Source: a bacterium
GTDB taxonomy: Bacteria; UBP15; UBA6099; DSWB01
Assembly: GCA_020061125.1 (NCBI GenBank)
Contig: JAGUYV010000160.1
Coordinates: 1 to 24,786, forward strand
Direction of reading: 5' to 3'
Length of the DNA: 24,786 bases
Numbering within the stretch: the stretch's first letter is position 1; the number at the start of each line of letters is the position of its first letter. The notes under the pieces are model-generated. The model searched no databases. It had not been told where the DNA came from and worked only from the letters and a program-made list of their open reading frames with translations. This document shows positions 5,643 to 21,330 of the stretch, piece by piece. The position numbers and the translations under genes were made by a program.

Positions 5643-6820
5643 AGTTTGGCCAGCCTTTCGAGAGCTTCCTGGATGCGCGCTTCTTCTTCTACGAGCGCGA
5701 AGCGGATGTAGCCGTTTCCGGCTTCGCCGAAGCCTACGCCGGGCGCCACGGCTACGCCGGTTTCCTTGATCATCAGAGACGCGAATTCCAGGGAGGTCAT
5801 TTCCTGGAACGCCTCGGGGATGGGCGCCCACACATAGAGCGTGGCTTTGGGCCGCTGGTGCTTCCAGCCGAGTTTGTCCAGGCCGTCGCACAGAACATCG
5901 CGGCGGCGCTGGTACGCGGCCACGGTTTCATCAATGATTTCGTCGTTCAGCTCAAGGGCGCGCACCGCGGCTTTCTGGATGGCGTTGAAGCAGCCGAAAT
6001 CCACATAGCTTTTCATCTTGGCGAGGATTTTCATGATCTTGGCGTTGCCGACCACGAAGGCCACGCGCCAGCCCGCCATGCTGAAGGTCTTGCTCAAGCT
6101 GTGGAACTCCACGCCCACATCCTTGGCGCCCTCGACCTCCATGAAGCTGGGGGCCTTGTACCCGTCGAAGCAGATTTCCGTGTAAGCGGCGTCGTGGCTC
6201 ACGATGATGCGGTGTTCCTTGGCCCACGGGATGATGGGCTTGAAGTAGTCCTTGTCCACGCACACGGTGGTGGGGTTGTGCGGGTAGCTCAAGTACAGGA
6301 TTTTGGCGCGTCGCAGCACGCCCGGTTCGATGCTGTCCAGGTCAGGCAGGAAATCGTTCTCGGGCAGAAGCGGCAGATTGTAGAGGTTGCCGCCGAACAT
6401 GATCACGCTGTTGAAGAAAATGGGATAGGTGGGCGTGGGCACCAGGGCGTAGTCGTCGCGGTCCAGGAACGCGGCGGACATGTTGGCGATGCCTTCTTTG
6501 GAGCCGATCAGCACCACGACTTCTTCGCTGGGATTGATGTCCACATTGAAGCGCTTGCCGTACCAGTAGGCGATGGCGCGCTTGAGTTCGATGATGCCGT
6601 CCCCGGCGGGGTAGCGGTTGATGTGCTTGGTGTGGATGGCGTTGCACAGTTCGTCGCGCACTTCCTTGGGAACGGGCAGATCCGGGCTGCCCATGCCCAT
6701 GTCAATGATGTCCATGCCCTGGGCGCGCGCTTCCTTTTTGAGCTTGTTGATCATCGTGAAAACATACGGGGGGAGCTTGCTGATCCGGATGGATTGCATG
6801 TCTTCAAAATCTATTGGCAT
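5639..6820 (-). CDS. AlaC-like class I/II pyridoxal-phosphate aminotransferase
   Basis: This 393-residue fold-type I aminotransferase opens with the LPPYVFTMINKLK segment followed by MGMGSPDLP, typical of the AlaC/YfdZ alanine transaminase and LL-diaminopimelate aminotransferase-like group. The PLP-binding lysine is in SLSKTFSMAGWR (about Lys244), after a YLSYPHNPTT asparagine motif. A C-terminal YIRFALVEEE motif supplies the substrate-carboxylate arginine. The start ATG at 6820 is chosen because a GGGAGG site lies eight bases upstream; an earlier in-frame start seven codons up lacks this. The product probably makes alanine or a related amino acid, though exact substrate is open. The stop overlaps phoH. 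Confidence 0.85.
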   Translation of the reverse strand: MPIDFEDMQSIRISKLPPYVFTMINKLKKEARAQGMDIIDMGMGSPDLPVPKEVRDELCNAIHTKHINRYPAGDGIIELKRAIAYWYGKRFNVDINPSEEVVVLIGSKEGIANMSAAFLDRDDYALVPTPTYPIFFNSVIMFGGNLYNLPLLPENDFLPDLDSIEPGVLRRAKILYLSYPHNPTTVCVDKDYFKPIIPWAKEHRIIVSHDAAYTEICFDGYKAPSFMEVEGAKDVGVEFHSLSKTFSMAGWRVAFVVGNAKIMKILAKMKSYVDFGCFNAIQKAAVRALELNDEIIDETVAAYQRRRDVLCDGLDKLGWKHQRPKATLYVWAPIPEAFQEMTSLEFASLMIKETGVAVAPGVGFGEAGNGYIRFALVEEEARIQEALERLAKL

Positions 6821-6862
6821 AAACGAAACCTCCCGGCGCACTGGGGAGCGCCCTTGTTATAA

Positions 6863-6877
6863 CTTCCCGGAGGGAAG
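6863..6877 (-). other. Leader hairpin upstream of the aminotransferase gene
   Basis: A perfect 6-bp inverted repeat CTTCCC/GGGAAG with a three-base loop sits about 43 bases before the aminotransferase start. It overlaps the predicted transcription start. No T-tract follows on either strand, so it is not a standard terminator. Confidence 0.35.
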
Positions 6878-6880
6878 CGG

Positions 6881-6910
6881 ATATTAGCACATAATAATAA
6901 AAAAAAACAA
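6881..6910 (-). promoter_or_regulatory. Predicted sigma-70 promoter of the aminotransferase-phoH operon
   Basis: On the minus strand, a TTGTTT -35 box (6910-6905) and a TAATAT -10 box (6886-6881) are separated by 18 bases in a very AT-rich stretch. This would give a leader of about 50 bases. The T-runs make alternative boxes possible. Confidence 0.4.
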
Positions 6911-6976
6911 TTAAAAAACCATGATTATTGAAACAATGGAAACGGGTGCGCCGGGGACCGGAGGCGGGAGATTGCG

Positions 6977-7477
6977 TCAGTGTTCCGGTCCTTCGATTTC
7001 GTTGACGAGCGCCTCGAAAAGGGTGATGTTGTCGCGGCTGGCGTTGCGCAGCCTGCCCGCGAGAATCTTGGCGATCTCGCGAGTGACATACAGCCCGATG
7101 CGCGTGTCGCTGTCTCCGAGCTGGTCGAAGTCCGCTTTCTTGATGACCATGCACTCGCAATCGGTTTCCGCGATCACCGACGCGGAACGGACATCGTCGT
7201 CCATGAGCGCCAGTTCTCCGAAGAACACATTCATCTCGTCCGTGAGCTTGACCACGGTGTAACTGTCGTCCTTGAGGGTGCGTTTCTCGATGCTCACGCG
7301 GCCGCGGCTCAAGATGAACATCTCGTCGCCCTGGTCGCCTTCCTTGATGATGAAATCCCCTTTTTGAAAGGAGCGCATCTCAATAATGCCGCGGATCTTT
7401 TCAATCGCATGGCAATCGTCCTTGAATTTCACGAACAGGCTGATGTTCCGCAGTTTTTTGGTGATTGTTTCAGTCAT
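6977..7477 (-). CDS. Cyclic nucleotide-binding domain protein
   Basis: This 166-residue protein is a single CAP/PKA-type cyclic nucleotide-binding domain plus a C-terminal helix, with no DNA-binding domain. Visible landmarks are the QKGDFIIKEGDQGDEMFIL strand-turn (first glycines of the beta-roll) and the phosphate-binding cassette FFGELALMDDDVRSASV. The key Glu88 and Arg97 are both present, so cAMP/cGMP-type binding is plausible. Its start overlaps the last 8 bases of the K+ channel gene, so both are made from one message in coupled fashion. In many channels this domain is fused to the channel; here it appears as a separate chain and is likely a gating or localising partner. Confidence 0.88.
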   Translation of the reverse strand: MTETITKKLRNISLFVKFKDDCHAIEKIRGIIEMRSFQKGDFIIKEGDQGDEMFILSRGRVSIEKRTLKDDSYTVVKLTDEMNVFFGELALMDDDVRSASVIAETDCECMVIKKADFDQLGDSDTRIGLYVTREIAKILAGRLRNASRDNITLFEALVNEIEGPEH

Positions 7478-8735
7478 CGGAGGATTCCTCCTCCCTCACT
7501 TCCACGACAATGGCCATGGAATGGTCCGGAACGGCGTAATCGTCCGGCGGGTTGAAATGCGGATGATTGTTCTTGAGTTGTTTCACCTTCTGGAGATTTT
7601 CCACGATTTTCGATATGTTCGCGGTTTTCTGGGCCTCGCGCAGGGCTTCCTGCTTGCGCTCGAAAAAGCTGCCCACATTCTCGATCAACCCGATCAAGGT
7701 TATGTTCGGCCCGTAATGCGCTTTGAGATCGGAATATGGCCTGCCCACGAACTCCCTGGGGAATTCCGTGGTGGTGAGCCTGGACGGGGTGTTGAGATCC
7801 AGAAGGTCGTTCATGACCTGAACCAGTCCCGTGGCCGCAGTGGAGTGCGCCAGCATGAGGCGTCCGTACTGGCGGGGATATATGATTTCCGCGACATGGG
7901 CCTTTTGCAGATAGGTTTCAAATTTGGGATCGAGCAGTTCGGCGCAGACATGGATGTTGCGCGCGATGGTGCCGATGAGCATGGCCGTCATCACGGTTTT
8001 GGAATCAATTTCGGACGGAGACGCGTCCGAGCTTTCGTCGGCCAGAATGAATGCGCTCCTGGCCTCCTTGATATTCGCCATTTGCAGCATGGTTTCGTTG
8101 AAATCTTCGCCGCGGATAAAATTGATGTCCTTGAAATCGGGATTCTGCTGCTTGAACAGATCGATGGCGTCCTGCGAGATATTCGCAATGATGACGATGT
8201 CCGACGCTTTGATATCTTTATTGACTGTGAAGATATCCTCAAGCGTGCCCTCCATCTTCCGTTTCCAGCCGCAGATCACGGTGTGGCCCTTGAGCCTGGA
8301 AAGGTCCGTCACGCCCTTGCCCTCCCTGATCATTTTGACGACCCGGATGGATGCGAATGTGGCCGTCAGAAGCGAAAAGCAGATTACGCCCGTGAACATC
8401 ACGAAAATTATCAGCAATTTCCCCGCAGGCGTTTTCGGGGAAAAGTCGCCGTATCCGATCGTGGTCATGGTCACGATGGAAAAGTAAAACGCATCAATGA
8501 AGCGGATAAGCGGGGTCGGCGCAGGATCGCTGGGGAACATGCCCGAATTGCGCTCCAGGTACAGACCAAAGAACACTGCGGAAATCACGCCCACGATGAG
8601 GATGATGCCGATGAGCCGCGGCAGATTCTCTTTTTGTATCGAAGCCCACAATTCCCGCGCGCTGGCATAGGCCTGTTTCACTTGATCCGCAAGCCGCGTA
8701 TCGGGCGCATCTTTTTCGTTGCGTTCTTTCGCCAT
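7470..8735 (-). CDS. Two-transmembrane potassium channel with RCK (TrkA-N/TrkA-C) domains, MthK-like
   Basis: This 421-residue protein has a cytosolic N-terminus, TM1 (about 37-60), a pore helix and K+ selectivity filter TTIGYGD (about 91-97), then TM2 (about 104-130). The Rossmann-like RCK N-lobe begins at HTVICGWKRKM, as in MthK-type channels. The RCK region has acidic LADESSDASPSEIDSKT and AELLDPKFETYL segments. A C-terminal conserved block (ISKIVENLQKVKQLKNN, then FNPPDDY) ends with an MAIVVEV strand. Such channels form tetramers gated by Ca2+, nucleotides or other ligands on an RCK octamer. The gene overlaps the cyclic-nucleotide-binding gene. Its cytosolic half is homologous to the protein at 15997-16902. 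Its ligand cannot be told from sequence. Confidence 0.93.
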   Translation of the reverse strand: MAKERNEKDAPDTRLADQVKQAYASARELWASIQKENLPRLIGIILIVGVISAVFFGLYLERNSGMFPSDPAPTPLIRFIDAFYFSIVTMTTIGYGDFSPKTPAGKLLIIFVMFTGVICFSLLTATFASIRVVKMIREGKGVTDLSRLKGHTVICGWKRKMEGTLEDIFTVNKDIKASDIVIIANISQDAIDLFKQQNPDFKDINFIRGEDFNETMLQMANIKEARSAFILADESSDASPSEIDSKTVMTAMLIGTIARNIHVCAELLDPKFETYLQKAHVAEIIYPRQYGRLMLAHSTAATGLVQVMNDLLDLNTPSRLTTTEFPREFVGRPYSDLKAHYGPNITLIGLIENVGSFFERKQEALREAQKTANISKIVENLQKVKQLKNNHPHFNPPDDYAVPDHSMAIVVEVREEESSDD

Positions 8736-8976: not shown

Positions 8977-11424
8977 TTGAAGACTCGAAAAGAAAACAAC
9001 TCATCGCAGGCCGCGAATCTCGCCGGGCGCCTTGCGGCCATTTACGGCCGGGTCGTGATCACGGCCGCTCTCATTTTCGCCGCACTTGTCACGGTGCTTC
9101 TGGTGAAACAGTATTATGACAAAAAAAATCAAATGATAAGATCCGCCACCGATGACCTCGAAGAAAGGGCCATCAGCGTGGATTATTTTTTAAGCAACGC
9201 GGCAGAGGATGTGATCGAGTCCAAAATCTGGGCGCAGGATTACCTCAACTTATCGCGTGACAACGAGGATCCGCCCGAACTGCCCAAGACCGTACGACTG
9301 GACACGGGCGGAAAGATCCATGTCGCGGAGCCTCCGCACAAAGACATATACGGAAATATCGTGCTCACGGATTCCGAGATACCCGCCGGTTCGGATGCGA
9401 TCCGCCAGATTGACATGGCGTTCAAGCTCTTCGAGGTGCAGCGCATCAACCATTACGCGCCGCCGGATTTCACCTGGAGCGAATTTTATTCGACTAAGGG
9501 CTTCGGCTCCGTTTATCCCTGGAGCGCATCGGACAAGAGCGTGCGGATTCTTCAACGGCGCGTGGCCAGGGACATGCTGCGGCAGTTCGAGACCTCCGCC
9601 GCGGATCTCAAACAGAGAAATCCGTTTGAGTCCCGGTTATGGAGCGAAGCCTATGTGGACGTTCCCGGCCGGGGACTGATGATCACATGCGGCTCACCCG
9701 TGTTTGATGGGGACCGGTTCATCGGCATGGTGTCAGCGGAGATGAGCCTGGATTTTTTCAGCCATTTCGTGGAAAAGCAACAAACGGCAAATGGCGCGAT
9801 CATGATCGTCAACAGCAGAAAACAAATCCTGTCAACGACCGGAATGAAGCCCAGGCTCATGGAGCGCGTGCCCGTGTTTGGAAATCACGCGCCCGGGCTG
9901 GACCTGGAATCCATATTTAACACGAACCCCGGCGGCGCAGGATATCTTCATTCAGGGAAAAACCACATTATTTCCACACGGCTGAACAATGCGGACTGGG
10001 CCATGATCAAAATCATGCCCGAATCGGACATTATGCGCGCGTTCTTTCCCGAGGCTCTGTTCGGCGCCGTGGTGGTTGGCCTGATGTTCGGATTTCTGGC
10101 AGCGGCCAACAGAGTCATGAACAGATACTTTGTAAAGCCCGCCCTCGGGTTTGTAGACTTCATCGAGGCGGAAGCCACAACCGGACGACCGGCGCCAAGG
10201 CCCAAAGTGCCGCCCGTCTGGGAACAGTGGTTCATACGCATGTCCGATACCCTTGCTCTCAAGTCCGTGGCCGCCAATCTGCCCGGCGCAATCTTCCAGC
10301 TCAAGAAAACAGGCAGCGGAAACGCGACGCTCACAATCGTGAGTTCAGGCGTCGAGCAACTGCTCGGCGTTGCCGCGGAAGATCTTGTGAACAGGGACGC
10401 CTTCACCCTCAATTTCTTGAGCGGACGCAATGCGGAACAGTTCAAGCAGAAGCTGCGGGACTCGGAATCAGACCTCAAGCCGTTCGCTTTTGAAACCGCC
10501 GTAACCATTCCATCCGGAAAAGAACGCTGGGTGCGATTCATTCTGCGGCCGAGAAAAGAACGGGACGAACCCGGCGAAACCATGTGGGACGGGCTGATGC
10601 TCGACATCTCCGACAGGAAACGCCTCGAGGACCAGCTTCTCGAACATCGCGACCGGCTCGAGGAAACCGTGGCCAGCAGAACCGGCGAGCTTAAGAATGT
10701 GAACGAGGAATTGCGCAGGGAAATTCAGGAACGCATCAAATCGGAAGCCGCGCTCAAGGTGAGCGAAGAGCGCATCCGCGCCATGTCGCAAAAAGCGATC
10801 CGCGCACAGGACGACGAACGCGAACGGCTCTCCCGCGAGTTGCACGACGAAATCGGCCAGCAGTTCGCGGCCGTGCTGTTCCAGTTGCCGGCCATCAAAA
10901 ATAAACCCTGCATCTGCCCGGACGACATCGTGCGCATTGAACACATGATCCGGGACATCGGCGAGGACCTGCACCGCATTTGCAAGGGCCTGCAGCCCAT
11001 GACCCTAACGCAGTTCGGTCTGGCCCCCGCGCTCAAGATGCTGCTGTGGGAATTCATGGAAACCTACGGCGCAAAAATCGTCACGGACATTGAAAGCCCG
11101 GTACATTGCCCCGATAATGAACTTGCGGCCGCGGCTTACCGGATCTGCCAGGAAGCCGTGTCCAACAGCATCCGGCATTCCGGCGCGGAAAAGATTCTCG
11201 TGTCGCTGAAACAGGACGCGCGCGGCATTGAACTGACAGTACGGGACAACGGCCGGGGATTCGATATGGACACAGCAAAAGACAAGGGAAACCTGGGCCT
11301 GTCCGGAATGAAACGGCGCGCGGAGCAGAGCGGCGGCCGGCTCGAGATCGAATCCGCGCCGGGCCGCGGCGCACGCGTCGCATTCTCGCATCCGGCGCTG
11401 GCCGCGGCAAAGGACGAATCATGA
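8977..11424 (+). CDS. NarL-family sensor histidine kinase with extracytoplasmic sensor and PAS domain
   Basis: This 815-residue membrane kinase starts at TTG: the frame is closed by TAA at 8941 and no ATG precedes the first helix. Its layout is TM1 (about 22-44), a large periplasmic region (45-355) resembling a double-Cache sensor (ends with the RLNNADWAMIKIMPESDI strand-turn), and TM2 (about 360-380). A PAS-like domain (about 430-545) and coiled coil (550-600) follow. The HisKA_3 phosphoacceptor is in RELHDEIGQQ (His623), and the ATPase domain has an N-box near 727 (EAVSNSIRHS) and DNGRGFDM near 756. The stop overlaps the response-regulator start as ATGA, so the two form a cognate pair. The signal is unknown; Cache domains usually bind small molecules. 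Confidence 0.9.
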   Translation: MKTRKENNSSQAANLAGRLAAIYGRVVITAALIFAALVTVLLVKQYYDKKNQMIRSATDDLEERAISVDYFLSNAAEDVIESKIWAQDYLNLSRDNEDPPELPKTVRLDTGGKIHVAEPPHKDIYGNIVLTDSEIPAGSDAIRQIDMAFKLFEVQRINHYAPPDFTWSEFYSTKGFGSVYPWSASDKSVRILQRRVARDMLRQFETSAADLKQRNPFESRLWSEAYVDVPGRGLMITCGSPVFDGDRFIGMVSAEMSLDFFSHFVEKQQTANGAIMIVNSRKQILSTTGMKPRLMERVPVFGNHAPGLDLESIFNTNPGGAGYLHSGKNHIISTRLNNADWAMIKIMPESDIMRAFFPEALFGAVVVGLMFGFLAAANRVMNRYFVKPALGFVDFIEAEATTGRPAPRPKVPPVWEQWFIRMSDTLALKSVAANLPGAIFQLKKTGSGNATLTIVSSGVEQLLGVAAEDLVNRDAFTLNFLSGRNAEQFKQKLRDSESDLKPFAFETAVTIPSGKERWVRFILRPRKERDEPGETMWDGLMLDISDRKRLEDQLLEHRDRLEETVASRTGELKNVNEELRREIQERIKSEAALKVSEERIRAMSQKAIRAQDDERERLSRELHDEIGQQFAAVLFQLPAIKNKPCICPDDIVRIEHMIRDIGEDLHRICKGLQPMTLTQFGLAPALKMLLWEFMETYGAKIVTDIESPVHCPDNELAAAAYRICQEAVSNSIRHSGAEKILVSLKQDARGIELTVRDNGRGFDMDTAKDKGNLGLSGMKRRAEQSGGRLEIESAPGRGARVAFSHPALAAAKDES

Positions 11425-12062
11425 TCACGCTCATCATCGCAGACGATCACAACCTGGTGCGCGCGGGAATCTGCGCCCTGCTCCAGCCTCACGACGACTT
11501 CCGCGTCGTCGCCGAAACCGGCAGCGGCAAAGAGGCTGTGGCTCTGTGCCTCAAGCACAAACCCAACATTCTGCTGCTCGATCTCGGCATACCGGATCTG
11601 GACGGACTCGAAGTCACAAAGCAGGTGACGGCTTCCGATCCGTGCGTAAAAATCATCGTGCTGACCATGTATGAAAATGAAGAGTACGCCACACGCGTTC
11701 TCAACGCCGGCGCCCGCGGCTATATCGTCAAACGCGTGTCCTCCGAGGAGCTTCCCGCCATCATCCGCAAAGTCATGGCCGGTGAAATCTGCATCACGGA
11801 TTCCATCATGAAACAAATCGCCATAAGGAAAACCACATCGGGCGGACAAAGCCTTCTGTCGCTTCTTTCCGACCGTGAGCTGCAGATATTCCACCACCTT
11901 GCCAAGGGGCTGACAGGCGCGCAGGTGGCCTCCAAACTGGATTTGAGCGCAAGCTCCGTGGCCACTTACAAATCGCGCATCATGGACAAGCTCGGCCTCA
12001 AGAACCACGCGGAACTCATGCGATTCGCGCTGCGCCTCGGCCTTATCGAAAAATTCGAATAA
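11421..12062 (+). CDS. NarL/FixJ-type response regulator with LuxR helix-turn-helix
   Basis: This 213-residue protein has a receiver domain (1-120) with acidic pair Asp8-Asp9, phosphoacceptor Asp54 in LLLDLGIPD, the LTMY threonine switch and the conserved lysine in GYIVKR. A linker leads to a LuxR-type helix-turn-helix (about 145-207; LSDRELQIFHHLAKGLT then VATYKSRIMDKL). Length and layout are standard for NarL-family regulators. It is translationally coupled to the upstream kinase, which should phosphorylate it. Likely targets include the neighbouring DUF1538 operon 255 bases downstream or the divergent channel operon, but this is only inferred from position. Confidence 0.95.
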   Translation: MITLIIADDHNLVRAGICALLQPHDDFRVVAETGSGKEAVALCLKHKPNILLLDLGIPDLDGLEVTKQVTASDPCVKIIVLTMYENEEYATRVLNAGARGYIVKRVSSEELPAIIRKVMAGEICITDSIMKQIAIRKTTSGGQSLLSLLSDRELQIFHHLAKGLTGAQVASKLDLSASSVATYKSRIMDKLGLKNHAELMRFALRLGLIEKFE

Positions 12063-12316: not shown

Positions 12317-14446
12317 ATGGACAACCAACAGCAAACAGGCGGAAAAATCAAAGTCGGGTTCAAGCAGGGAATGGCCATGTTGTTCCCATACGCGAAATCG
12401 CGCCTGATCGAGCAGGTCAAATCCGTGGCGCTCATCATCATTTACCTGATCTTTTTCCAGACCATGGTGCTGGGAATAGCCGTGGCCCAGGCGGCCATGA
12501 TCGCCGCCGGGCTTGCGCTCGTGATCGGAGGCCTGGCGTTCTTCATGGAAGGGCTGATGCTGGGTCTCATGCCCCTGGGTGAAGTCATCGGCCTCAAGCT
12601 GCCGCAGAAGTCCAAGCTGCCGGTGATCCTGGGATTTTCCTTCATTCTGGGCATGGGCGCAACCTTTGCGGAACCCGCGATCAGTGTGCTCAAAGCCGCG
12701 GGATCGTCCGTAAGGCCATGGGACGCCCCCCTGCTTTTCCTTCTGCTGAACAAATTCTCGGGTTACCTGGTCATGTCCGTGGGCGTGGGCGTGGGCATAG
12801 CGGTCGTGTTCGGAATGATCCGTTTCATGTATAACATCTCCCTCAAGCCCTTTATCTACATTCTGCTTTCGTTTCTTTTGCTCTTCACGCTCTGGTCGTT
12901 TTTCAACGCGAACATGAGAAATGTGACCGGCTTGGCGTGGGACTGCGGCGCGGTGACCACGGGACCGGTCACGGTGCCCCTGGTGCTCGCGCTGGGCATC
13001 GGCATCTGCCGTGTGGTGGGCGCCGCCGGGTCGGGGTCCTCCGGCTTCGGCGTGGTCACCCTGGCGTCGCTGTTTCCCATCATTTCCGTGCTCCTGCTCG
13101 GGGCGTCCCTTTCCGGAACCGTGCCCCAGCCCATGTCCGAAGCCGCATTCTTCAGCGCGGCCAACCGCGACAAGGCCCAGGCCCTGTTCACGAGCCGCGA
13201 GGAAATGATCGGTTTCGCATTCCAGAACGCGAAGCGGGAGAGCCAACTTGCGCTCTTCGACGGCAGCAGCGAGAAAATGATCGCTTATCTGGAATCGCTG
13301 AAATCCAGCGAAAAGGAACGGGCCGCCGTGTTCGGTCCCAAGAGAGACGCGCTCGAAAAATGGGCCGCCACCAAAGGAACCAGAACACAGGCCATGGCCG
13401 TGTTTCCGAGCGCCGAGGCCGCGCGCGAAGCCGCACAGAAATACGCCGCCATGCTGGAAGATCCCGTACAGCCAGCGGACCTCATTCTCCGCAATACCAA
13501 GGCCGCGGCCCAGGCCATCATTCCGCTTTCCATCTTCTTCCTCCTGGTGCTCACGCTCATTCTGCGCGAACGCCTGCCCCGCGCGGACGAGGTGTTTCTG
13601 GGACTGGGCTTCGCCGTATTCGGCATGATGCTATTCAGCATCGGCATCGAGATCGGCCTGTCCAAACTCGGCAACCAGGTGGGCGGCAAGGTGCCTTCCT
13701 CGTTCAAGGCCATCGAACTGCCCGAACAGAGAAGCACCATCAACAAGTTCGATCCGGACATCGTGAAAACCGCGATCACCGCGGACGGAGAAACCCAAAC
13801 CTTTTTCTATGTGAGGGAAAAAACCGGATACAGGCAGCTTCCGTACCATGAGGATCAGTACAGCCCTGAAACGAGCCAGTACAACTACACCCCCACGCGC
13901 GGGCCTCTGTTCGGCGCCGAAGGAGGCTTGACCGGCATTCTTGTGGTGCTGGTGTTCGCGTTCATTCTGGGATATGGCGCCACCCTGGCCGAACCCGCTC
14001 TGAACGCACTGGGCCTGACCGTTGAAGAACTCACGGTCGGCGCCTTCAAGAAATCTTTGCTCATGCAGGCCGTGGCCCTGGGCGTGGGCGTGGGCATCGC
14101 CGTTGGCGTGGCCAAAATCATCTGGAACATTCCGCTGCTATGGCTCATGGGACCACCTTACATACTTTTGCTGATAATCACCAAAATATCCACAGAGGAA
14201 TTCGTAAACATCGGCTGGGACAGCGCGGGCGTGACCACCGGCCCCATCACCGTGCCCCTGGTGCTGGCCATGGGCCTCGGAATCGGCGGCCAGGTGGGCG
14301 TGGTCGAGGGCTTCGGCATCCTGTCCATGGCCTCGGTGTGCCCCATCCTGTCCGTGCTGTGCGTGGGCCTCATGGTGACCCGCAAGCGCAAGGCGGCGCT
14401 ACAGGAAGCAAGCGAAACCGCTGAACCGAAGGAGGTGGCGGCATGA
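12317..14446 (+). CDS. Duplicated DUF1538 membrane protein, putative transporter
   Basis: The start ATG at 12317 has a GGAGG site ten bases upstream; an in-frame codon 15 residues earlier lacks one. The 709-residue protein contains two DUF1538-type membrane halves. Matching motifs recur: GATFAEP (about 115) and GATLAEP (about 555); GVGVGIAV twice; TTGPVTVPLVLA (about 212) and TTGPITVPLVLA (about 638), each preceded by WD; and a final FPIISVLLLG/CPILSVLCVG helix. Between the halves lies a polar, helix-rich, probably soluble insert (about 265-385) plus an additional soluble loop (about 450-510). Such internal duplication is usual in secondary transporters. DUF1538 has no established substrate that I know. 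The stop overlaps the next gene as ATGA. Confidence 0.85.
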   Translation: MDNQQQTGGKIKVGFKQGMAMLFPYAKSRLIEQVKSVALIIIYLIFFQTMVLGIAVAQAAMIAAGLALVIGGLAFFMEGLMLGLMPLGEVIGLKLPQKSKLPVILGFSFILGMGATFAEPAISVLKAAGSSVRPWDAPLLFLLLNKFSGYLVMSVGVGVGIAVVFGMIRFMYNISLKPFIYILLSFLLLFTLWSFFNANMRNVTGLAWDCGAVTTGPVTVPLVLALGIGICRVVGAAGSGSSGFGVVTLASLFPIISVLLLGASLSGTVPQPMSEAAFFSAANRDKAQALFTSREEMIGFAFQNAKRESQLALFDGSSEKMIAYLESLKSSEKERAAVFGPKRDALEKWAATKGTRTQAMAVFPSAEAAREAAQKYAAMLEDPVQPADLILRNTKAAAQAIIPLSIFFLLVLTLILRERLPRADEVFLGLGFAVFGMMLFSIGIEIGLSKLGNQVGGKVPSSFKAIELPEQRSTINKFDPDIVKTAITADGETQTFFYVREKTGYRQLPYHEDQYSPETSQYNYTPTRGPLFGAEGGLTGILVVLVFAFILGYGATLAEPALNALGLTVEELTVGAFKKSLLMQAVALGVGVGIAVGVAKIIWNIPLLWLMGPPYILLLIITKISTEEFVNIGWDSAGVTTGPITVPLVLAMGLGIGGQVGVVEGFGILSMASVCPILSVLCVGLMVTRKRKAALQEASETAEPKEVAA

Positions 14447-15561
14447 ACGGCAAACAGGTCTCCAGAGTCATTGCGGCGGTTGCGCGAGGCGCGGCCGACC
14501 CCGTTCTCAAATCCTTGAGAGAGGCAGGCATTTCAACAGGCCATCTGGCCGCGGGCCGTTCCGTGGCCCTTGAAGACAAAAAAGGGTTTCTCGGACTTGG
14601 GGAACGATCCGTGATCGTCGAAGACCCCATCGAGATATTTTCGTTCCTGGTCAGTCCCGAACTCGAAGACACCGCGCTCGATATCATTATCAGAACCGGA
14701 CGCCTGGACATTCTGGGGAGAGGATCCGTACACAGCGAGACCGTGCACTTAATCAAATCGCACGCCCTGTGCGCCGAAAACTCCGGGGCCGCAGCCCCGG
14801 ACAAAGAACTGCCGCTGCTCACCGAACTCATGGGCATCTGCTGCATCGTGCAGCGCGGACAGGGCGACGCCGTGGCGCGCATGGCGCTGGACACCGGAAC
14901 CTGCGTTCCCGCCATCACCTTCGGAACGGGAACGGGCGTGCGCGATAAACTCGGCCTTCTGCGCATCACCATTCCCGCGGACAAGGAAGTCATCTCTCTG
15001 GCCGCCAGCGTTCACGACGCGGATGCTGTGATGGACCTCATGATTGATGCGGGGAAACTTGACGAACCGGGCAAGGGTTTTATATATCAGTACCCCCTCA
15101 AGCAGGGCATCGTGAACACAAAGATATCCCGCGGCATGCCCAAGCACGCCGCCAGCATCGAGCAGATCATTTCCACCATTGACCAGATTAAGGGCAACAC
15201 GCAATGGCGCAGCCGCTCTGGCATGGCGTCCACAAACGGCGGCGCGCGGCGCAAGTATCTTACCAATCTGATTGATCTGACGCTGATATGCAACGAAGGC
15301 CGCGCGGACGATCTTGTGAAGTCCGCAATGGCCGCAGGCGCTGCCGGCGCCACCATCAGCATACTCAAGCATGTGCGGCCCCAGGATTCCGGCGCCGCAA
15401 AGGTGTCCCCCGCCCGCGAAAGCTGCAACATGATCGTCGGCGAGCAGCAAATTCCCGCGATTCTGGCCGAACTCGACAAGGTCGGAGCGTTCGACGACAA
15501 AACGCACGGCTTGCTATACGGCAAACCCGCGCCCAAGGCGTGCACATACCTTGGCAAATAG
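14443..15561 (+). CDS. Triple P-II-like (GlnB-fold) regulatory protein
   Basis: This 372-residue soluble protein has three tandem GlnB-like domains (about 5-105, 125-230 and 275-365). Each ends in a related turn-strand: TGRLDILGRGSVHSETV (85-101), AGKLDEPGKGFIYQYPLKQG (203-222) and VGAFDDKTHGLLYGKPAPKA (347-366). These correspond to the C-terminal GK(I/V)FV strand of P-II proteins. A Gly-rich GTGTGVRDKLG loop (161-171) precedes the core strand of domain 2. P-II proteins are normally about 112 residues and trimeric, so one chain could fold as a pseudo-trimer. The start overlaps the DUF1538 stop and has an ideal AAGGAGG site. Relatives in databases pair P-II proteins with DUF1538, suggesting that it gates that membrane protein. 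Confidence 0.85.
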   Translation: MNGKQVSRVIAAVARGAADPVLKSLREAGISTGHLAAGRSVALEDKKGFLGLGERSVIVEDPIEIFSFLVSPELEDTALDIIIRTGRLDILGRGSVHSETVHLIKSHALCAENSGAAAPDKELPLLTELMGICCIVQRGQGDAVARMALDTGTCVPAITFGTGTGVRDKLGLLRITIPADKEVISLAASVHDADAVMDLMIDAGKLDEPGKGFIYQYPLKQGIVNTKISRGMPKHAASIEQIISTIDQIKGNTQWRSRSGMASTNGGARRKYLTNLIDLTLICNEGRADDLVKSAMAAGAAGATISILKHVRPQDSGAAKVSPARESCNMIVGEQQIPAILAELDKVGAFDDKTHGLLYGKPAPKACTYLGK

Positions 15562-15604
15562 CGGAATGCAATGACGCGGCGGCAAACGAACCGGAGGAAA
15601 GAAC

Positions 15605-15994
15605 ATGGCTGATTACGATGCGTATTCCTCGCAGGGCTGTCCGGAGTGTGTGCGCGCGGCCGTTCAACCGCCGCAGTGCGCGCAATCCAAGCGCAGCGGC
15701 TGGTCCCTGTTCGACTTTCAGAGGAATTCCGGCCTACCACAGGTCTTGTTGATACTGGCCCCATTTTTCGCGGCCGCGGTCGCGTTCAACAAGTATGTCG
15801 TGATACCCGCGGGCGGACAGTCCGCGGTTTCCCTCGCGAGCGCCCCCTCCGGGTTGCCTGATCGGAATAGCGGCCTGGTCACGGTTCCAGTCGAATTGTT
15901 CTTTGTCATGTTCGCCGCCGTTGCTTTCGTAGTGGCCACAGTCACGGCAATCGTGATTTCCGGATTGATCGAGCGAAAGCTGAAAGGAGAATAA
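15605..15994 (+). CDS. Small two-helix membrane protein, possible pore-less relative of a 2TM channel
   Basis: This 129-residue protein has a GGAGGAAAG site directly before its ATG. A polar N-terminus with Cys12, Cys15 and Cys25 is followed by TM1 (about 44-67, starting GLPQVLLILAPFF), a polar loop of about 25 residues, and TM2 (about 95-120), then a basic tail. Position and helix spacing resemble the membrane part of the K+ channel at 7470-8735, where TM1 also begins LPRLIGIILI and TM2 runs into a basic linker. However, the pore helix and TxGYGD filter are absent. The next gene, two bases later, encodes a free RCK module, so the two may act as a membrane anchor plus sensor. Relationship to channels is my inference. 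Confidence 0.75.
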   Translation: MADYDAYSSQGCPECVRAAVQPPQCAQSKRSGWSLFDFQRNSGLPQVLLILAPFFAAAVAFNKYVVIPAGGQSAVSLASAPSGLPDRNSGLVTVPVELFFVMFAAVAFVVATVTAIVISGLIERKLKGE

Positions 15995-15996
15995 TC

Positions 15997-16902
15997 ATGA
16001 TCCATTCACATAAATTTTCCGAAGCCCGTATTCTGGTGTGCGGATGGAAAGAGGATATGGGAAATTTCCTGAAATCGGCGATCAACGGTCATGAGCCGTT
16101 TGCGCCCGGCGCAGTGGCAGTTATTGCCGCCGTGGATCCGGCTTGTTTCGAAAGCATGAAGCGGGAAAACACGGCTCTTCTGAATGTCTCGTTCATAAGC
16201 GGAGCATGCGACGATGAAACCGTGTTGCGCCAGTCGGGCGCGGCCGTCGCGTCAACCATTGTTGTGCTGGCAGATGAAAGCAGGCCCGGCGCCAGGGGCT
16301 CCGATATTGACGCCCGGACATTGAAAACGGTTGCCGCAATCCGTTCCATAAATCGCTCCGCCCGGCTCTGTGTGGAGATTCTTGATGAAAGGCTCAAGCC
16401 ATTGCTTCTGGATTCGCACGCCGACGAAGTGGTATGCGCCGGTGAATTGGCGCGCCGTATTCTTGGCCGCGGTTCCGTGATGACCGGTTTCCCGGCGATC
16501 CTGTCGGGATTGCTCTCTGGAATGGAGCAGGGAACCGTTTATACCGCCCGCATTCCGGACGAATATCAGGGACAGCCTTTCGATGCCCTTGCCGCTCATT
16601 TCCAGGAGTCAGGCGAATTGCTGGCCGGTCTTGTTGAGAACGCGGTTATGCCTGGCGCATCACGAAGCGAGGCAATACGCGAAGCCCTTAAGACGCCCTC
16701 CGTATCCAGAGCCGTTGAGAATTTACTCAAGATCAAAAAAATGAAAACCAATGTGCCTGTGTTCAATCCTGGCGTCGGATACATTGTTCCCCAAAACGCT
16801 CTGGCCATTGTCATCGGCCGTTCCGCCTTGCCGCATGCAAAGCGAAGCAAGCCATACAAACGAGACCCAATGGATCTTCCCGCCGCGAGAACATTGATCT
16901 AA
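15997..16902 (+). CDS. Soluble RCK/TrkA-N-like regulatory protein
   Basis: This 301-residue protein lacks membrane helices and corresponds, end to end, to the cytosolic half of the channel at 7470-8735. Shared landmarks include ILVCGWKEDM versus TVICGWKRKM near the N-terminus, an FISG/FIRG strand, a VLADES/ILADES acidic loop followed by DIDARTLKT/EIDSKTVMT, and CVEILDERL/CAELLDPKF. The C-terminal block SRAVENLLKIKKMKTN then FNPGVGYIVPQNALAIVI matches the channel tail. RCK domains bind ligands (cations, nucleotides, c-di-AMP) and control channels or transporters. A GGAG site lies within the end of the preceding gene, so it is co-translated. It probably regulates the DUF1538 transporter or the two-helix protein. 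Confidence 0.88.
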   Translation: MIHSHKFSEARILVCGWKEDMGNFLKSAINGHEPFAPGAVAVIAAVDPACFESMKRENTALLNVSFISGACDDETVLRQSGAAVASTIVVLADESRPGARGSDIDARTLKTVAAIRSINRSARLCVEILDERLKPLLLDSHADEVVCAGELARRILGRGSVMTGFPAILSGLLSGMEQGTVYTARIPDEYQGQPFDALAAHFQESGELLAGLVENAVMPGASRSEAIREALKTPSVSRAVENLLKIKKMKTNVPVFNPGVGYIVPQNALAIVIGRSALPHAKRSKPYKRDPMDLPAARTLI

Positions 16903-16928: not shown

Positions 16929-16943
16929 TGATTCAGCGAATCA
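16929..16943. terminator. Possible bidirectional hairpin between convergent genes
   Basis: TGATTC and GAATCA form a perfect 6-bp stem with a three-base loop, between the RCK gene stop (16902) and the convergent GT4 stop (16941-16943), which lies in the hairpin. Flanks are T/A-rich only for three or four bases, so terminator activity is uncertain. Confidence 0.35.
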
Positions 16944-18197
16944 TTTGCGGGGCGCGAGCGCGAACTTCTCCGAAAATGCCCGGAACAGATCTTTATTCAT
17001 GAAAATCATGAGCAAAAGATAATTTTTCACATGCCGGGTGAGCAGATAATTACTGCGCACAAGCTCGCGGCCGCTGGCGCCCATCCAGTCGCCCCTGCCG
17101 GGGTCGCGCAGCAGGTCCTCGATGCGTTTGGCGCAGCCCTCGATGGAGTGCACCAGATAACCGGTGACGCCGTTGATGACCTGGGCCTTGATGCCGCCCA
17201 CAGCGCCGCCGATGACCGGCCGCCCCTTCCACAAAGCCTCGGTCACGGTCATGCCGAATCCTTCCTTGAGCGACTTTTGCAGCACCACGGCGCTGGCGCG
17301 CTGCAGCGCGTTGATGTCAAGGTCGCTGAATGGGGGCAGCTCGAGAATTTTGATGTCCGGGTCGCCGTCTGCGGCCTCGCGCACCTCGCGCAGCACGGCC
17401 TGGCCCTCGGGATCGTCCGACGCGCCGCCGCCCGCAAGGCACAACTGGCAGTCCATCCGCTTGCGCACCAGCTTGTACGCTTGAATCACGCCGATGGGAT
17501 CCTTGAGGCGATCAAACCGCGAGATTTGCGATATCATGGGCCTGCCGGGATCGAGATCGAACTTTTCCAGGGTTTTCTCAATGGTCTTGCGGTCCAGTTC
17601 CCGGTTCTTGTCGCTCAAGGGATCAATGGACGGCGTGATCAGAATCTGGGGGATGGACAATTCTCTGGAGAACTGCGGCATGGTGAAAATCGAGGCGTCG
17701 TATTTTTCCACTTCATCGTCCAGGAAATTCCACACCTTTTTGTTGGGCGAGGACACATCAATATGGCAGCGCCAGGCCCACATGGAACCTGGAAATTCGT
17801 GGCGTTTTCGCACCAGGCCCACGGGCTGGGGGTCGTGGATGATGTAATAGTCCGCTTCCTTGTCGAAAAGGTCCAGGTTCATCCTGGTATAGCGGTCGAA
17901 AATGCGGAACATGCCGTCGGTGATCCCGACATCCGCTCCGTGCAGCGCATTGTGGAAAGCCTTGGTGACCTCAAAGAAATCGGTGTCTCCCTTGATGACA
18001 TCCCAGGAGGCGCGGACGCCAAGGCTGTTGAGCAGCGGAACCAGGCGCGTGAGGATTTCCGCCACGCCTCCGCCCTCGAAGGTGGCGTTGACATTGTGCA
18101 TGCGCCGCCCTTCCAGCATAGACGCGAGCATTTTAATCTCTTCCACTTCGTTGGCGCCGATGATCCTGCGGTAACTGTCAATGGTGGTCTGATTCAT
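16941..18197 (-). CDS. treT: GT4-family glycosyltransferase, TreT-like trehalose synthase
   Basis: This 418-residue enzyme has the GT-B fold. The N-terminus contains FEGGGVAEILTRLVPLL and WDVIKGD, then FFEVTKAFHNALHG, which I associate with the trehalose glycosyltransferring synthase (TreT) group. The C-terminal nucleotide-sugar domain has ISRFDRLKDPIG, a GGGASDDPEG loop and the GT4 E-x7-E motif in EGFGMTVTEALWKG. TreT makes trehalose from an NDP-glucose and glucose. A start with an AAGGA site follows the DUF5752 stop by 12 bases. It is the last gene of the otsA-otsB-DUF5752-treT operon, which is odd because OtsA/OtsB already give a complete route. A different acceptor is possible, so the symbol is tentative. 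Confidence 0.8.
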   Translation of the reverse strand: MNQTTIDSYRRIIGANEVEEIKMLASMLEGRRMHNVNATFEGGGVAEILTRLVPLLNSLGVRASWDVIKGDTDFFEVTKAFHNALHGADVGITDGMFRIFDRYTRMNLDLFDKEADYYIIHDPQPVGLVRKRHEFPGSMWAWRCHIDVSSPNKKVWNFLDDEVEKYDASIFTMPQFSRELSIPQILITPSIDPLSDKNRELDRKTIEKTLEKFDLDPGRPMISQISRFDRLKDPIGVIQAYKLVRKRMDCQLCLAGGGASDDPEGQAVLREVREAADGDPDIKILELPPFSDLDINALQRASAVVLQKSLKEGFGMTVTEALWKGRPVIGGAVGGIKAQVINGVTGYLVHSIEGCAKRIEDLLRDPGRGDWMGASGRELVRSNYLLTRHVKNYLLLMIFMNKDLFRAFSEKFALAPRK

Positions 18198-18209
18198 GGC
18201 GTTCCTTTC

Positions 18210-18881
18210 TCAAAGCTCCTGCTCGACCAGGGCGCAGATGCTCTCACGCAACTGATCCAGCGTGCAGACATAGGGATTGAGCCTGTTGATGGCGTCCGCG
18301 AGGTCCTGGCGCTCGAACCGCTGGGCGATCCACAGGGAAAAGTCGTTGATGGGCAGCCCCACGCGCAGCCTGGCTTCCACGAAATGAAAGAAGATGCTGT
18401 TTCTGGAGCAACGCGCAAGATGGTTGGCGAACTCCTCGAGGGTGGCCGCGCGGCGGCCCGTGGGAATGACGAATGTGTGGGCGCTGCACAGGTGGAACCG
18501 GTCGTGCTCGCGGGCGTCATGGCTCGCGGCGCGCGGGTGTTTCTTAAGATGCTCCTCGATGATGGAGATCATCTTCTCGCGGTAAGCCCGGATTGTGGTG
18601 TAGTCAATCAGGTCTATGGCCGAAAGCCTTTCGCTCAACTCGTCGTCGCCCAGGGCGTCGCCCACCCAGAATGCGAAGTCGTTGCGGAAACCCTCGGTGA
18701 TGAAGTGCTGCATGAGCATGGTGCGAAATGTGTGGCAGTATATGACCGACCCGCTCACGGAGCGCAGCCGGTCGAGCATCTCGCCAAGATTGAGGACGCT
18801 GTCGCCCGTGGCTTCCACGAGCTGTACTGCGGTATAAAATTCGAATGGATCCGTTGTCACGCTCTGTTGTGCCGTATTCAT
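18210..18881 (-). CDS. DUF5752 family protein
   Basis: This is a 223-residue soluble protein. The start ATG at 18881 is preceded by AGAGAGG and lies 16 bases after the otsB stop; a longer open frame upstream overlaps otsB and is rejected. Two similar blocks are visible: SVIYCHTFRTMLMQHFITE then NDFAFWVGDALGDDELSERL (about 45-85), and RNSIFFHFVEARLRVG then NDFSLWIAQRFERQDLADAI (about 165-200). Both have an I/F-Y/F-x-H centre followed by NDF-x-x-W, so the protein is an internal duplication. The pattern fits DUF5752 as I remember it. Function is unknown; its place between otsB and a GT4 gene points to trehalose or related sugar metabolism. Confidence 0.7.
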   Translation of the reverse strand: MNTAQQSVTTDPFEFYTAVQLVEATGDSVLNLGEMLDRLRSVSGSVIYCHTFRTMLMQHFITEGFRNDFAFWVGDALGDDELSERLSAIDLIDYTTIRAYREKMISIIEEHLKKHPRAASHDAREHDRFHLCSAHTFVIPTGRRAATLEEFANHLARCSRNSIFFHFVEARLRVGLPINDFSLWIAQRFERQDLADAINRLNPYVCTLDQLRESICALVEQEL

Positions 18882-18897
18882 GGGAACCTCTCTGATG

Positions 18898-19749
18898 TTA
18901 TTTGCCGCTCGCGGCGGCATCGGCCGCTCCGGGATCGCGGCCGCCCGCTTCTCGCGCGCACAACGCCAGGGATTCGAGCAGCGCTCGCACACGCGACACG
19001 GATGGGATACGGTAATGCGCAGCCGAAGTTCGGTCCTGTTCCGCAACAAGAATGCACGCCGCATGCTCCGCGCCCGCGGCGGCGTGCAGCGCGGCGAAAG
19101 CGTCTTCGTCCGTGAGATCGTCGCCCATGTACACCGCCAGGGTGCGCACGGGCCACACGGACCCGAACCACCGCTCCAGAAGCCCCAGAACGGCCGTGCC
19201 TTTGTTGGTCTTCACGCGCGGGCGGATCTCCAGAACCTTCTTGCCCGGGGCCACCTGAAACGCGGACAGATTTCCGTGCGCCAGCCACCAGTCGAAAAAC
19301 GCGGCCAGCAACTCGGGCGCGGCATCCGGCGCCGCCTGGCGGAAATGGATGCCGAGCGCGGTTTCCTTGTCCTCGATCAGCGCCCCCGGAAACTGCTGCG
19401 GCAGCCATGCGAGCGCGTATTTGTACCGGGTGACGCACTCGCTGTAACGCGCCGGGCCCTCGAGCGCCGCGCCATGGTCTCCGATCAGCTCTGTATTTTC
19501 AAGGCCGGGAAGAAAGCGTTCCAGTTCCGGCCTGGTGCGCCCGGAGAGCACGGCGGTGCGCACGCGGGCGCACGACTCCAGGGCCTTCAATGCGGGCAGC
19601 ACGCCCTCGCCCGCCACGGCCAGATCCGGCGTTGGCGCTATGGGCGACAGGGTGCCGTCGTAGTCCAGCACAAGGGACAGAACCTTGTCCGATTCCAGCG
19701 CCGCGCGCACACGGTCAAGCAAGAGTTTTTCGTCAAGAAGACCCGGCAT
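18898..19749 (-). CDS. otsB: Trehalose-6-phosphate phosphatase
   Basis: This 283-residue HAD-superfamily phosphatase hydrolyses trehalose 6-phosphate to trehalose. Motif I is LVLDYDGTLSPI (nucleophile and acid/base Asp, about residues 29 and 31). Motif II is LSGR, followed by the IGDHGAALEG substrate segment. Cap-domain strands follow, and KTNKGTAVLGLL contains the motif III lysine. Motif IV is YMGDDLTDEDAF. Length fits the OtsB family (about 240-290). The start is two bases after the otsA stop, so the pair is translationally coupled. The extreme C-terminus is Ala/Gly-rich and may be disordered. Confidence 0.95.
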   Translation of the reverse strand: MPGLLDEKLLLDRVRAALESDKVLSLVLDYDGTLSPIAPTPDLAVAGEGVLPALKALESCARVRTAVLSGRTRPELERFLPGLENTELIGDHGAALEGPARYSECVTRYKYALAWLPQQFPGALIEDKETALGIHFRQAAPDAAPELLAAFFDWWLAHGNLSAFQVAPGKKVLEIRPRVKTNKGTAVLGLLERWFGSVWPVRTLAVYMGDDLTDEDAFAALHAAAGAEHAACILVAEQDRTSAAHYRIPSVSRVRALLESLALCAREAGGRDPGAADAAASGK

Positions 19750-19751
19750 GC

Positions 19752-21227
19752 TTACACTTCCAACCCCGCAGATTTTAAGCCCGCGATTTCCGAGGCGGCT
19801 TTCAGGAACCCGTTGACCCAGTCAAAAACGGTATAGGAGCCGGCTTCATCGCGCGCGGCGCGGATCATGGCCTTTCTTTCATCCGGGGGCATGGCCACGG
19901 CCCGGTAAATGCTGTCCGCGAAGGAATCGCGCTCGAAGGGATTGCAGGGGATAGCGTTTTTGATGGAGCCTGCCGCGCCCGCGAACTCGCTCAACACCAG
20001 AATCCCTTTTTCGTCCACCTGCGCGGCGATGAATTCCTTGGCCACAAGGTTCATGCCGTCCACCAGGGGCGACACCACGGCCACATCCGCCATTCGATAC
20101 ATGGCCAGGATGTGCTCGAACGGCACCTTGCGGTGAAACGCCACCACGGGCGTCCAGTCATCCGATCCGAAACGGCTGTTGATGCGGTTCGTCAATTCCA
20201 CAACTCGCGTTTTGATGGACTTATATTCGGATATTTCGCCTCTGCTCGGGGAACACACCTGCAGGAAAGTGAATTTCCCGCGCAGCTCCGGGCGCTTGTC
20301 GAACAGGATTTCCAGGGCTTCGAGCCGCTCTGGGATGCCTTTGGTGTAATCCAGCCGCTCCACGCCGCAGCCCACGATTCTGCCATCGAGCCGGTATCTG
20401 TCGCGGAGCTGTTTCATGAACTTCTTCACGCGCGCGGTGCGCGCGCCGCGCTCGATGTCGCGGACATCTATGCTGATGGGAAACGGCTCCACGCGCGGCA
20501 TGGCCGCGGACCAGATCTGTTCACGTGTGAATGCGCGCTCCAGGCATTCCTGGAAATTGCGGCAGTAGCGCGGTATATGGAATCCCACGAGGTCGCTGGC
20601 GCAGATTCCGCGAAGCAGGGATTTATGGTCCGGGCAGATCTTGAAAATATCATGTTGCGGCCAGGGAATGTGCCAGAAGAACACGACCGTGAGTCCAGGC
20701 TTTTCCTTCTTGAGCATTTCAGGCAGGAGCATGAGATGATAATCATGAACCCACACCACATCCCTGTCCCCGGCTTCATCGAGAACGGCGCTGGCGAATT
20801 TGCGATTCACCCGCACATATGCTTTCCATTTGAAATTGTCGAAACGGACTTTGCTGACCAGGTTGTGCGCGAGCGGCCAGAGGCCCTCGTTGCAGTATCC
20901 TGAATAATAATTTGCAACCTCGTTTGCGGACAGCCACACGCGCTTGAGCGTGTATGACGGCTTGATTGGCGGAACCTTGATGCGGCTGCGGCTGTCCACG
21001 ACATCCTTGTCCGCCCCGCCACTGCCCCATGCCACCCATGTGCCTCCCATTTCCTGCATCACCGGGTCCATGGCCGCGGTCACGCCGCCCGTGGGAATGG
21101 AGCACACAATATCGCCGTCCTCCGCGTGGCTGTGCGCATACGGCTCCCGGTTGGTCACAATCACAAGGTTGCGGCCCTTGAACCATTTCTTTGAAAAGTC
21201 TATTGTTTCTTGGTCGTTTTGTTCCAT
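19752..21227 (-). CDS. otsA: Trehalose-6-phosphate synthase
   Basis: This 491-residue GT20 enzyme joins UDP- or ADP-glucose to glucose 6-phosphate. Visible motifs are VTNREPY and the SIPTGGVTAAMDP segment at the N-terminus, HDYHLMLLPEML, FFWHIPWP, GVERLDYTKGIPERL (phosphate-binding Arg and Lys of the GT-B donor site) and DGMNLVAKEF near the C-terminus. I place the start at ATG 21227, spaced properly from a GGGAG site; a GTG two codons earlier would overlap that site. It is the first gene of a four-gene operon, driven by a well-formed promoter 172 bases upstream. Trehalose normally serves as an osmolyte or stress protectant. Confidence 0.95.
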   Translation of the reverse strand: MEQNDQETIDFSKKWFKGRNLVIVTNREPYAHSHAEDGDIVCSIPTGGVTAAMDPVMQEMGGTWVAWGSGGADKDVVDSRSRIKVPPIKPSYTLKRVWLSANEVANYYSGYCNEGLWPLAHNLVSKVRFDNFKWKAYVRVNRKFASAVLDEAGDRDVVWVHDYHLMLLPEMLKKEKPGLTVVFFWHIPWPQHDIFKICPDHKSLLRGICASDLVGFHIPRYCRNFQECLERAFTREQIWSAAMPRVEPFPISIDVRDIERGARTARVKKFMKQLRDRYRLDGRIVGCGVERLDYTKGIPERLEALEILFDKRPELRGKFTFLQVCSPSRGEISEYKSIKTRVVELTNRINSRFGSDDWTPVVAFHRKVPFEHILAMYRMADVAVVSPLVDGMNLVAKEFIAAQVDEKGILVLSEFAGAAGSIKNAIPCNPFERDSFADSIYRAVAMPPDERKAMIRAARDEAGSYTVFDWVNGFLKAASEIAGLKSAGLEV

Positions 21228-21330
21228 GAACACTCCCTGACCGGCGCTTCCTGGATTCTTTGACCGCCATGCTCCGGAATCATGCCATTTGCATCAGACG
21301 GTTTGCGGACAAATCGCTGAAAATGGGATT

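Follow-up and report, generated by a model that had tools for sequence, protein, structure and literature searches.

The 24,786-nt stretch of DNA analysed here (the window) carries a plus-strand run of four genes, encoding a DUF1538 membrane protein, a triple P-II-like protein (PII3), a two-helix (2TM) membrane protein and a free-standing RCK protein (Table 1). The first two genes share an ATGA overlap, and PII3 and 2TM are 43 bases apart and 2TM and RCK only 2 bases apart, confirming the single run, the ORF positions, the overlap and both gaps described in an earlier note on this DNA. A Shine–Dalgarno-like sequence precedes all four starts: CGGAGG (DUF1538), AAGGAGG (PII3), GGAGGA (2TM) and AAAGGAG (RCK). 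A promoter scan returned 4 sites, against 3.7 in shuffles, and was therefore left out of the argument.

Directly upstream of the run lie a membrane histidine kinase and a response regulator, and beyond them, on the minus strand, an intact 2TM K+ channel gene overlaps a gene for a cyclic-nucleotide-binding-domain (cNMP) protein. These same-window genes were missing from the list in the earlier note. The channel–cNMP pair is kept in this small phylum with or without DUF1538 nearby (also at L073–L077), and is thus a separate unit. On the other side, trehalose genes face the run and provide an osmolyte context; an open frame antisense to them is most likely a GC-rich antisense artefact.

Table 1 Features of the window
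Feature	Position	Strand	Length	Basis or remark
cNMP-binding-domain protein, overlapping the channel gene	6977..7477	-		cNMP_binding E 2.7e-20
Intact 2TM K+ channel, TIGYG filter, same RCK type as gene 4	7470..8735	-		Ion_trans_2 E 2.8e-17, Slo-like_RCK E 1.7e-12
Membrane histidine kinase (dCache, PAS, HisKA_3, HATPase)	8977..11424	+		Pfam; 58% identical gene at same position in L005
LuxR/NarL-type response regulator	11421..12062	+		Response_reg E 3.6e-27, GerE E 1.1e-15; 73% identical gene at same position in L005
Gene 1, fused UmpA+UmpB-type DUF1538 membrane protein	12317..14446	+	709 aa	Pfam, NCBIfam
DUF1538, first half	12434..13105	+		Pfam
DUF1538, second half	13532..14371	+		Pfam
ATGA overlap, genes 1 and 2	14443..14446	+		
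Gene 2, PII3, triple P-II-like protein	14443..15561	+	372 aa	Profile, AF2, Foldseek/VIA
Gap, PII3 to 2TM	15562..15604		43 bases	
Gene 3, two-helix (2TM) membrane protein	15605..15994	+	129 aa	No family match
2TM N-terminus, with Cys motif CPEC...C before first helix	15605..15700	+		Possibly metal-binding
Gap, 2TM to RCK	15995..15996		2 bases	
Gene 4, free-standing RCK protein, CASTOR/Slo-like	15997..16902	+	301 aa	Pfam, CASTOR structures
Trehalose genes (TreT-like, DUF5752, trehalose-phosphatase, GT20 synthase)	16941..21233	-		
Open frame antisense to trehalose genes	17031..19115	+	694 aa	

The DUF1538 protein and its P-II-like partner

The gene 1 product matches Pfam DUF1538 (PF07556) with an E-value of 3.5e-106 (353.7 bits against a gathering score of 22.6), and the two Pfam stretches bear out its description as a duplicated membrane protein. 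NCBIfam UmpA aligns to residues 31–262 with 177.4 bits and UmpB to residues 541–684 with 144 bits, far below the equivalog cut-offs of 490 and 500, so the product is a relative of these proteins rather than an equivalog. Five acidic residues (E78, E119, D209, E559 and D635) are invariant across 31 aligned members. Short DUF1538 members lack two parts of the fused proteins, a helical insert and a beta-rich segment. The AF2 model of the fused protein (pLDDT 81.5) has no significant match in the PDB (best E 0.045) and its VIA rows are weak (Z at most 6.0); we claim neither a fold relation nor a new fold.

In Halomonas zhaodongensis, UmpA and UmpB jointly make up a Na+(Li+,K+)/H+ antiporter (PMC5484666). 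The DUF1538 family is therefore not functionless, and the label 'transporter of unknown function' given to gene 1 in the earlier note no longer fits. Families linked to growth pH also include DUF1538 (PMC13255231). The gene 1 product is predicted to be, and probably is, a monovalent cation/H+ antiporter of the sodium/potassium-proton type, given the antiport activity of UmpAB, the UmpA and UmpB matches to its two halves and the invariant acidic residues. It shares with UmpAB the family, conserved acidic residues and paired homologous halves in the order A then B, but differs in that the halves are fused and carry long inserts, and in that a triple P-II-like gene follows.

When searched alone, PII3 matches no Pfam family at E<=1, so PF00543 is not matched by the protein itself; 7 of its 31 orthologs match PF00543 at E<=0.1. 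Searched against the PDB, a profile built from the 31 orthologs picks up P-II proteins (E 1.5e-4), with the first unit matching Corynebacterium glutamicum GlnK and the second archaeal GlnK. The AF2 model (pLDDT 85) consists of three repeated alpha/beta units, and the P-II units are located at about residues 4–106, 126–223 and 276–367. Structural comparison of the model with P-II/GlnK structures gives a Foldseek probability of 1.00 and a VIA alignment with Z 7.5 and rmsd 3.5–3.6 over 105–107 aligned positions, placing it in the P-II fold. The P-II call thus draws on the ortholog profile and the model, not on the window sequence alone, and both agree with the three-domain P-II-like protein first proposed. 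PII3 thus holds three P-II-like units in one chain and is perhaps a single-chain pseudo-trimer.

P-II proteins are best known for regulating the uptake of nitrogen and carbon, and act on transporters in the GlnK–AmtB and SbtB–SbtA pairs. The window resembles both in that a gene for a P-II-fold protein adjoins a membrane transporter gene. It differs in the transporter family, since the partner is DUF1538 by Pfam and not, as for GlnK, an ammonium transporter. PII3 also differs from GlnK and SbtB in having three P-II units per chain and in its nucleotide loop: the canonical GDGK of GlnB/GlnK aligns with GRGS in unit 1 and GKGF in unit 2. With the lysine replaced in both units, classical ATP/2-oxoglutarate sensing by PII3 cannot be assumed.

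Conservation and genomic neighbourhood of the pair

A P-II-like gene accompanies DUF1538 in 47 of 48 loci from many phyla, and the contig of the 48th ends inside DUF1538. As these loci were chosen by similarity to gene 1, two family-based samples of DUF1538 were added to lessen bias. In the phylum of a Desulfobacterales genome (DUF1538 in 17 of 297 genomes; 13 loci fetched), P-II adjoins DUF1538 in 12 of the 13 loci, and at the remaining one it seems to be present as a frameshifted copy. The second sample came from the phylum of the L039 genome (Polynucleobacter; DUF1538 in 123 of 398 sampled genomes; 20 loci): there, P-II lies next to DUF1538 at 19 of 20 loci, with L092 the only exception, and 14 of the 20 also have a CBS-domain gene next to P-II. 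Such a gene is an addition at many loci with split DUF1538. Runs of UmpA–UmpB–P-II–CBS with a small CBS-domain gene are seen at L078–L085, L090, L091, L093–L095 and L097, and also at L065–L067. The neighbour count had been set beforehand as a test that could refute the link; P-II adjoins DUF1538 almost everywhere sampled, so the link withstands it.

Long fused DUF1538 proteins pair with triple P-II proteins, and split or short ones mostly with smaller P-II genes. The DUF1538 and PII3 distances correlate (r 0.81, 25 loci), which shared descent alone could give. In the nearest relative, L005, DUF1538 is 80.7% identical to that of the window, and the two loci have in common the kinase–regulator–DUF1538–PII3 order with the channel–cNMP pair alongside, inverted in the window. 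The 2TM+RCK pair is missing after PII3 in L005 and in every other sampled locus, and no intact four-gene cassette occurs among the 48 similarity-chosen and 33 family-chosen loci. The proposed 'four-gene cassette' is therefore seen in this genome only, among the sampled loci; only its first two genes are retained together as a module in many bacterial phyla. Our search of the open-access literature found no description of the DUF1538–P-II link beyond UmpAB-related papers, which is not proof of novelty. P-II-controlled transporters are a known kind; what would be new are the transporter family, the three units in a single chain and the association with CBS and RCK proteins.

Genes for cation transport recur beside the pair. 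Among 38 loci outside the Burkholderiales group, an ion-channel match falls in the fetched stretch at 7, where each genome's own count predicts 0.14, and a TrkA_N match at 4, against a predicted 0.35, although the loci are not fully independent, which makes the probabilities indicative only. RCK/TrkA-bearing and K+-channel genes are thus unusually common beside DUF1538, in line with the co-occurrence that had been suggested. The neighbours comprise channels with a cNMP domain (L011, L014, L020, L049), six-helix channels (L039 and relatives), a channel with TrkA domains (L089), TrkA (L046, L096), TrkA with TrkH (L039), Kup (L018), CPA2 with TrkA (L017, L072) and Castor/Pollux-like proteins (L083, L085). 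At L009, the gene directly after PII3 (6136–7071, +) encodes one helix together with TrkA_N and TrkA_C, has no pore and resembles a K+ channel without its first helix and pore. By these predicted domains, it is a second, unrelated pore-less helix-plus-RCK gene at the same place as that of the window. A sulfate-permease-family gene with a cNMP domain (L012, 11264–13537, +) and a cyclase-domain gene with a ZIP-like gene bearing a cNMP domain (L005, 12992–16346, +) also lie near DUF1538–PII3.

The recurring K+ channels, TrkA/RCK proteins and Kup/Kef-type transporters lend supporting evidence to a predicted role in cation homeostasis. No nitrogen transporter genes were seen among the neighbours of the sampled DUF1538–P-II loci. 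A role in nitrogen status, which had also been put forward, is not supported, given the replaced GDGK lysine and neighbours that point to cation and osmotic homeostasis.

Channel ancestry of the RCK gene and, probably, of 2TM

The RCK protein matches Slo-like_RCK (PF22614) marginally (24.3 bits against a gathering score of 24) and CASTOR structures with an E-value of 5e-7, which upholds its assignment as an RCK module. Over 261 aa it shares 32% identity with the RCK part of the intact channel in the window (E 1e-47, two-sequence comparison). Six channels have 81 invariant positions in common, of which the RCK protein retains 42, the CGWK, LAD and PxxN motifs among them. The 2TM protein has no family match in Pfam or NCBIfam. 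Its sequence contains two hydrophobic segments and lacks the TxGYG selectivity filter (TVGYG or the like) of a 2TM K+ channel, as expected of the two-helix, pore-less protein reported earlier. A Cys motif precedes its first helix.

With 2TM and RCK computationally joined, the channel profile runs past the junction into the second 2TM helix (197.2 vs 188.5 bits). This junction score is reached by 1 of 1000 shuffles; 4 of 172 membrane-tail controls beat it, all four scoring at least 236 and probably representing true channels that contaminate the control set. The second 2TM helix is thus probably derived from a K+-channel inner helix, and the pair is best read as a K+ channel paralogue split in two, without the pore helix and filter. 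Judged by homology, its source paralogue is the intact channel 8 kb away in the same window. Among 6 other genomes of the phylum, 5 carry full-length relatives of that channel, and every other Slo-like RCK match in the phylum falls within a frame as long as a full channel, at one per genome. The 2TM and RCK starts lie 392 bases apart, hence in different frames, and we therefore rejected the idea that a stop codon simply split a channel gene. At 0.58, GC3 in the RCK gene is lower than in its neighbours, which fits a young or relaxed gene.

The pair resembles the RCK channels MthK, BK and CASTOR in RCK homology, in the intact paralogue nearby and in the probable inner-helix homology, and differs in lacking the selectivity filter and in having its membrane part and RCK as separate proteins. 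A second comparison is offered by KhtTU and CpeAB, in which an RCK_C subunit acts with a K+/H+ antiporter (PMC10117811): there too, an RCK-bearing gene lies beside a cation/H+ antiporter gene. However, the window antiporter belongs to DUF1538 and has no CPA2 (Na_H_Exchanger) match in Pfam, and its RCK is CASTOR/Slo-like with a separate 2TM partner.

A candidate regulated antiporter

On balance, we lean towards reading the locus as a UmpAB-type monovalent cation/H+ antiporter with a dedicated P-II-like regulator and a lineage-specific, pore-less RCK add-on. The DUF1538 chain would carry out the antiport. PII3 would bind its cytoplasmic side, on the model of GlnK with AmtB and SbtB with SbtA, and would open or close the antiporter in response to a small ligand, for which an adenine nucleotide is the probable candidate. 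The upstream kinase and regulator probably set transcription. The 2TM+RCK pair, added in this lineage, may serve the antiporter as a membrane-anchored accessory that senses ions or nucleotides, like the RCK subunits of KhtU, a precedent for RCK on an antiporter (PMC10117811). Besides the evidence on gene 1 given above, this reading is favoured by the position of P-II beside DUF1538 in 47/48, 13/13 (one frameshifted) and 19/20 loci, the ATGA coupling, the cation-transport neighbours, the L009 gene, the channel-invariant positions retained in RCK and the KhtTU precedent. Against the whole reading stand the low equivalog scores, the restriction of 2TM+RCK to one genome, the replaced GDGK lysine and the low GC3 of RCK.

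Alternatively, 2TM+RCK may be a decaying duplicate of the neighbouring K+ channel, leaving only DUF1538 and PII3 as a functional unit. We consider this a real but lesser possibility: occurrence in one genome, the missing pore, two ORFs in different frames and the lower GC3 all fit decay, whereas neither ORF is interrupted, each has a good ribosome-binding site, only 2 bases separate them, the RCK protein keeps 42 of 81 channel-invariant positions with its motifs among them, and a pore-less RCK gene occupies the same place in L009. It is rather unlikely that the pair modulates the intact channel, as part of a mixed gating ring or as a silent subunit, instead of the antiporter. RCK domains build rings with their own kind, as in MthK, BK and CASTOR, and pair and channel share ancestry; yet 2TM+RCK lies within the DUF1538–PII3 run, outside the channel–cNMP unit, and its identity to the channel RCK is only 32%. 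Least probable is that the fused DUF1538 protein carries another substrate, for example ammonium or bicarbonate, with P-II reporting nitrogen or carbon status as in GlnK–AmtB and SbtB–SbtA: the sole DUF1538 pair assayed is that of PMC5484666, the fused proteins have segments that short members lack, and the P-II transport partners known so far are nitrogen and carbon carriers, but the neighbouring genes encode cation channels and transporters, among which no nitrogen carrier was seen, and the canonical lysine is replaced.

Returning to the P-II-regulated antiporter, a bolder and doubtful version gives it two cytoplasmic gates, the single-chain P-II pseudo-trimer and an RCK that would be held to the membrane by a former, now non-conducting, part of a K+ channel. 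If true, channel remnants were recruited as transporter regulators, here and separately in L009. The filter-less split channel is a possible case of a channel turned regulator. More broadly, a P-II protein, often with CBS, beside a Na+/K+–H+ antiporter family would couple the sensing of small ligands to the balance of cations and pH, and the near-constant P-II partner makes control of DUF1538 antiporters directly testable. The locus points to an undescribed way in which bacteria may control ion balance.
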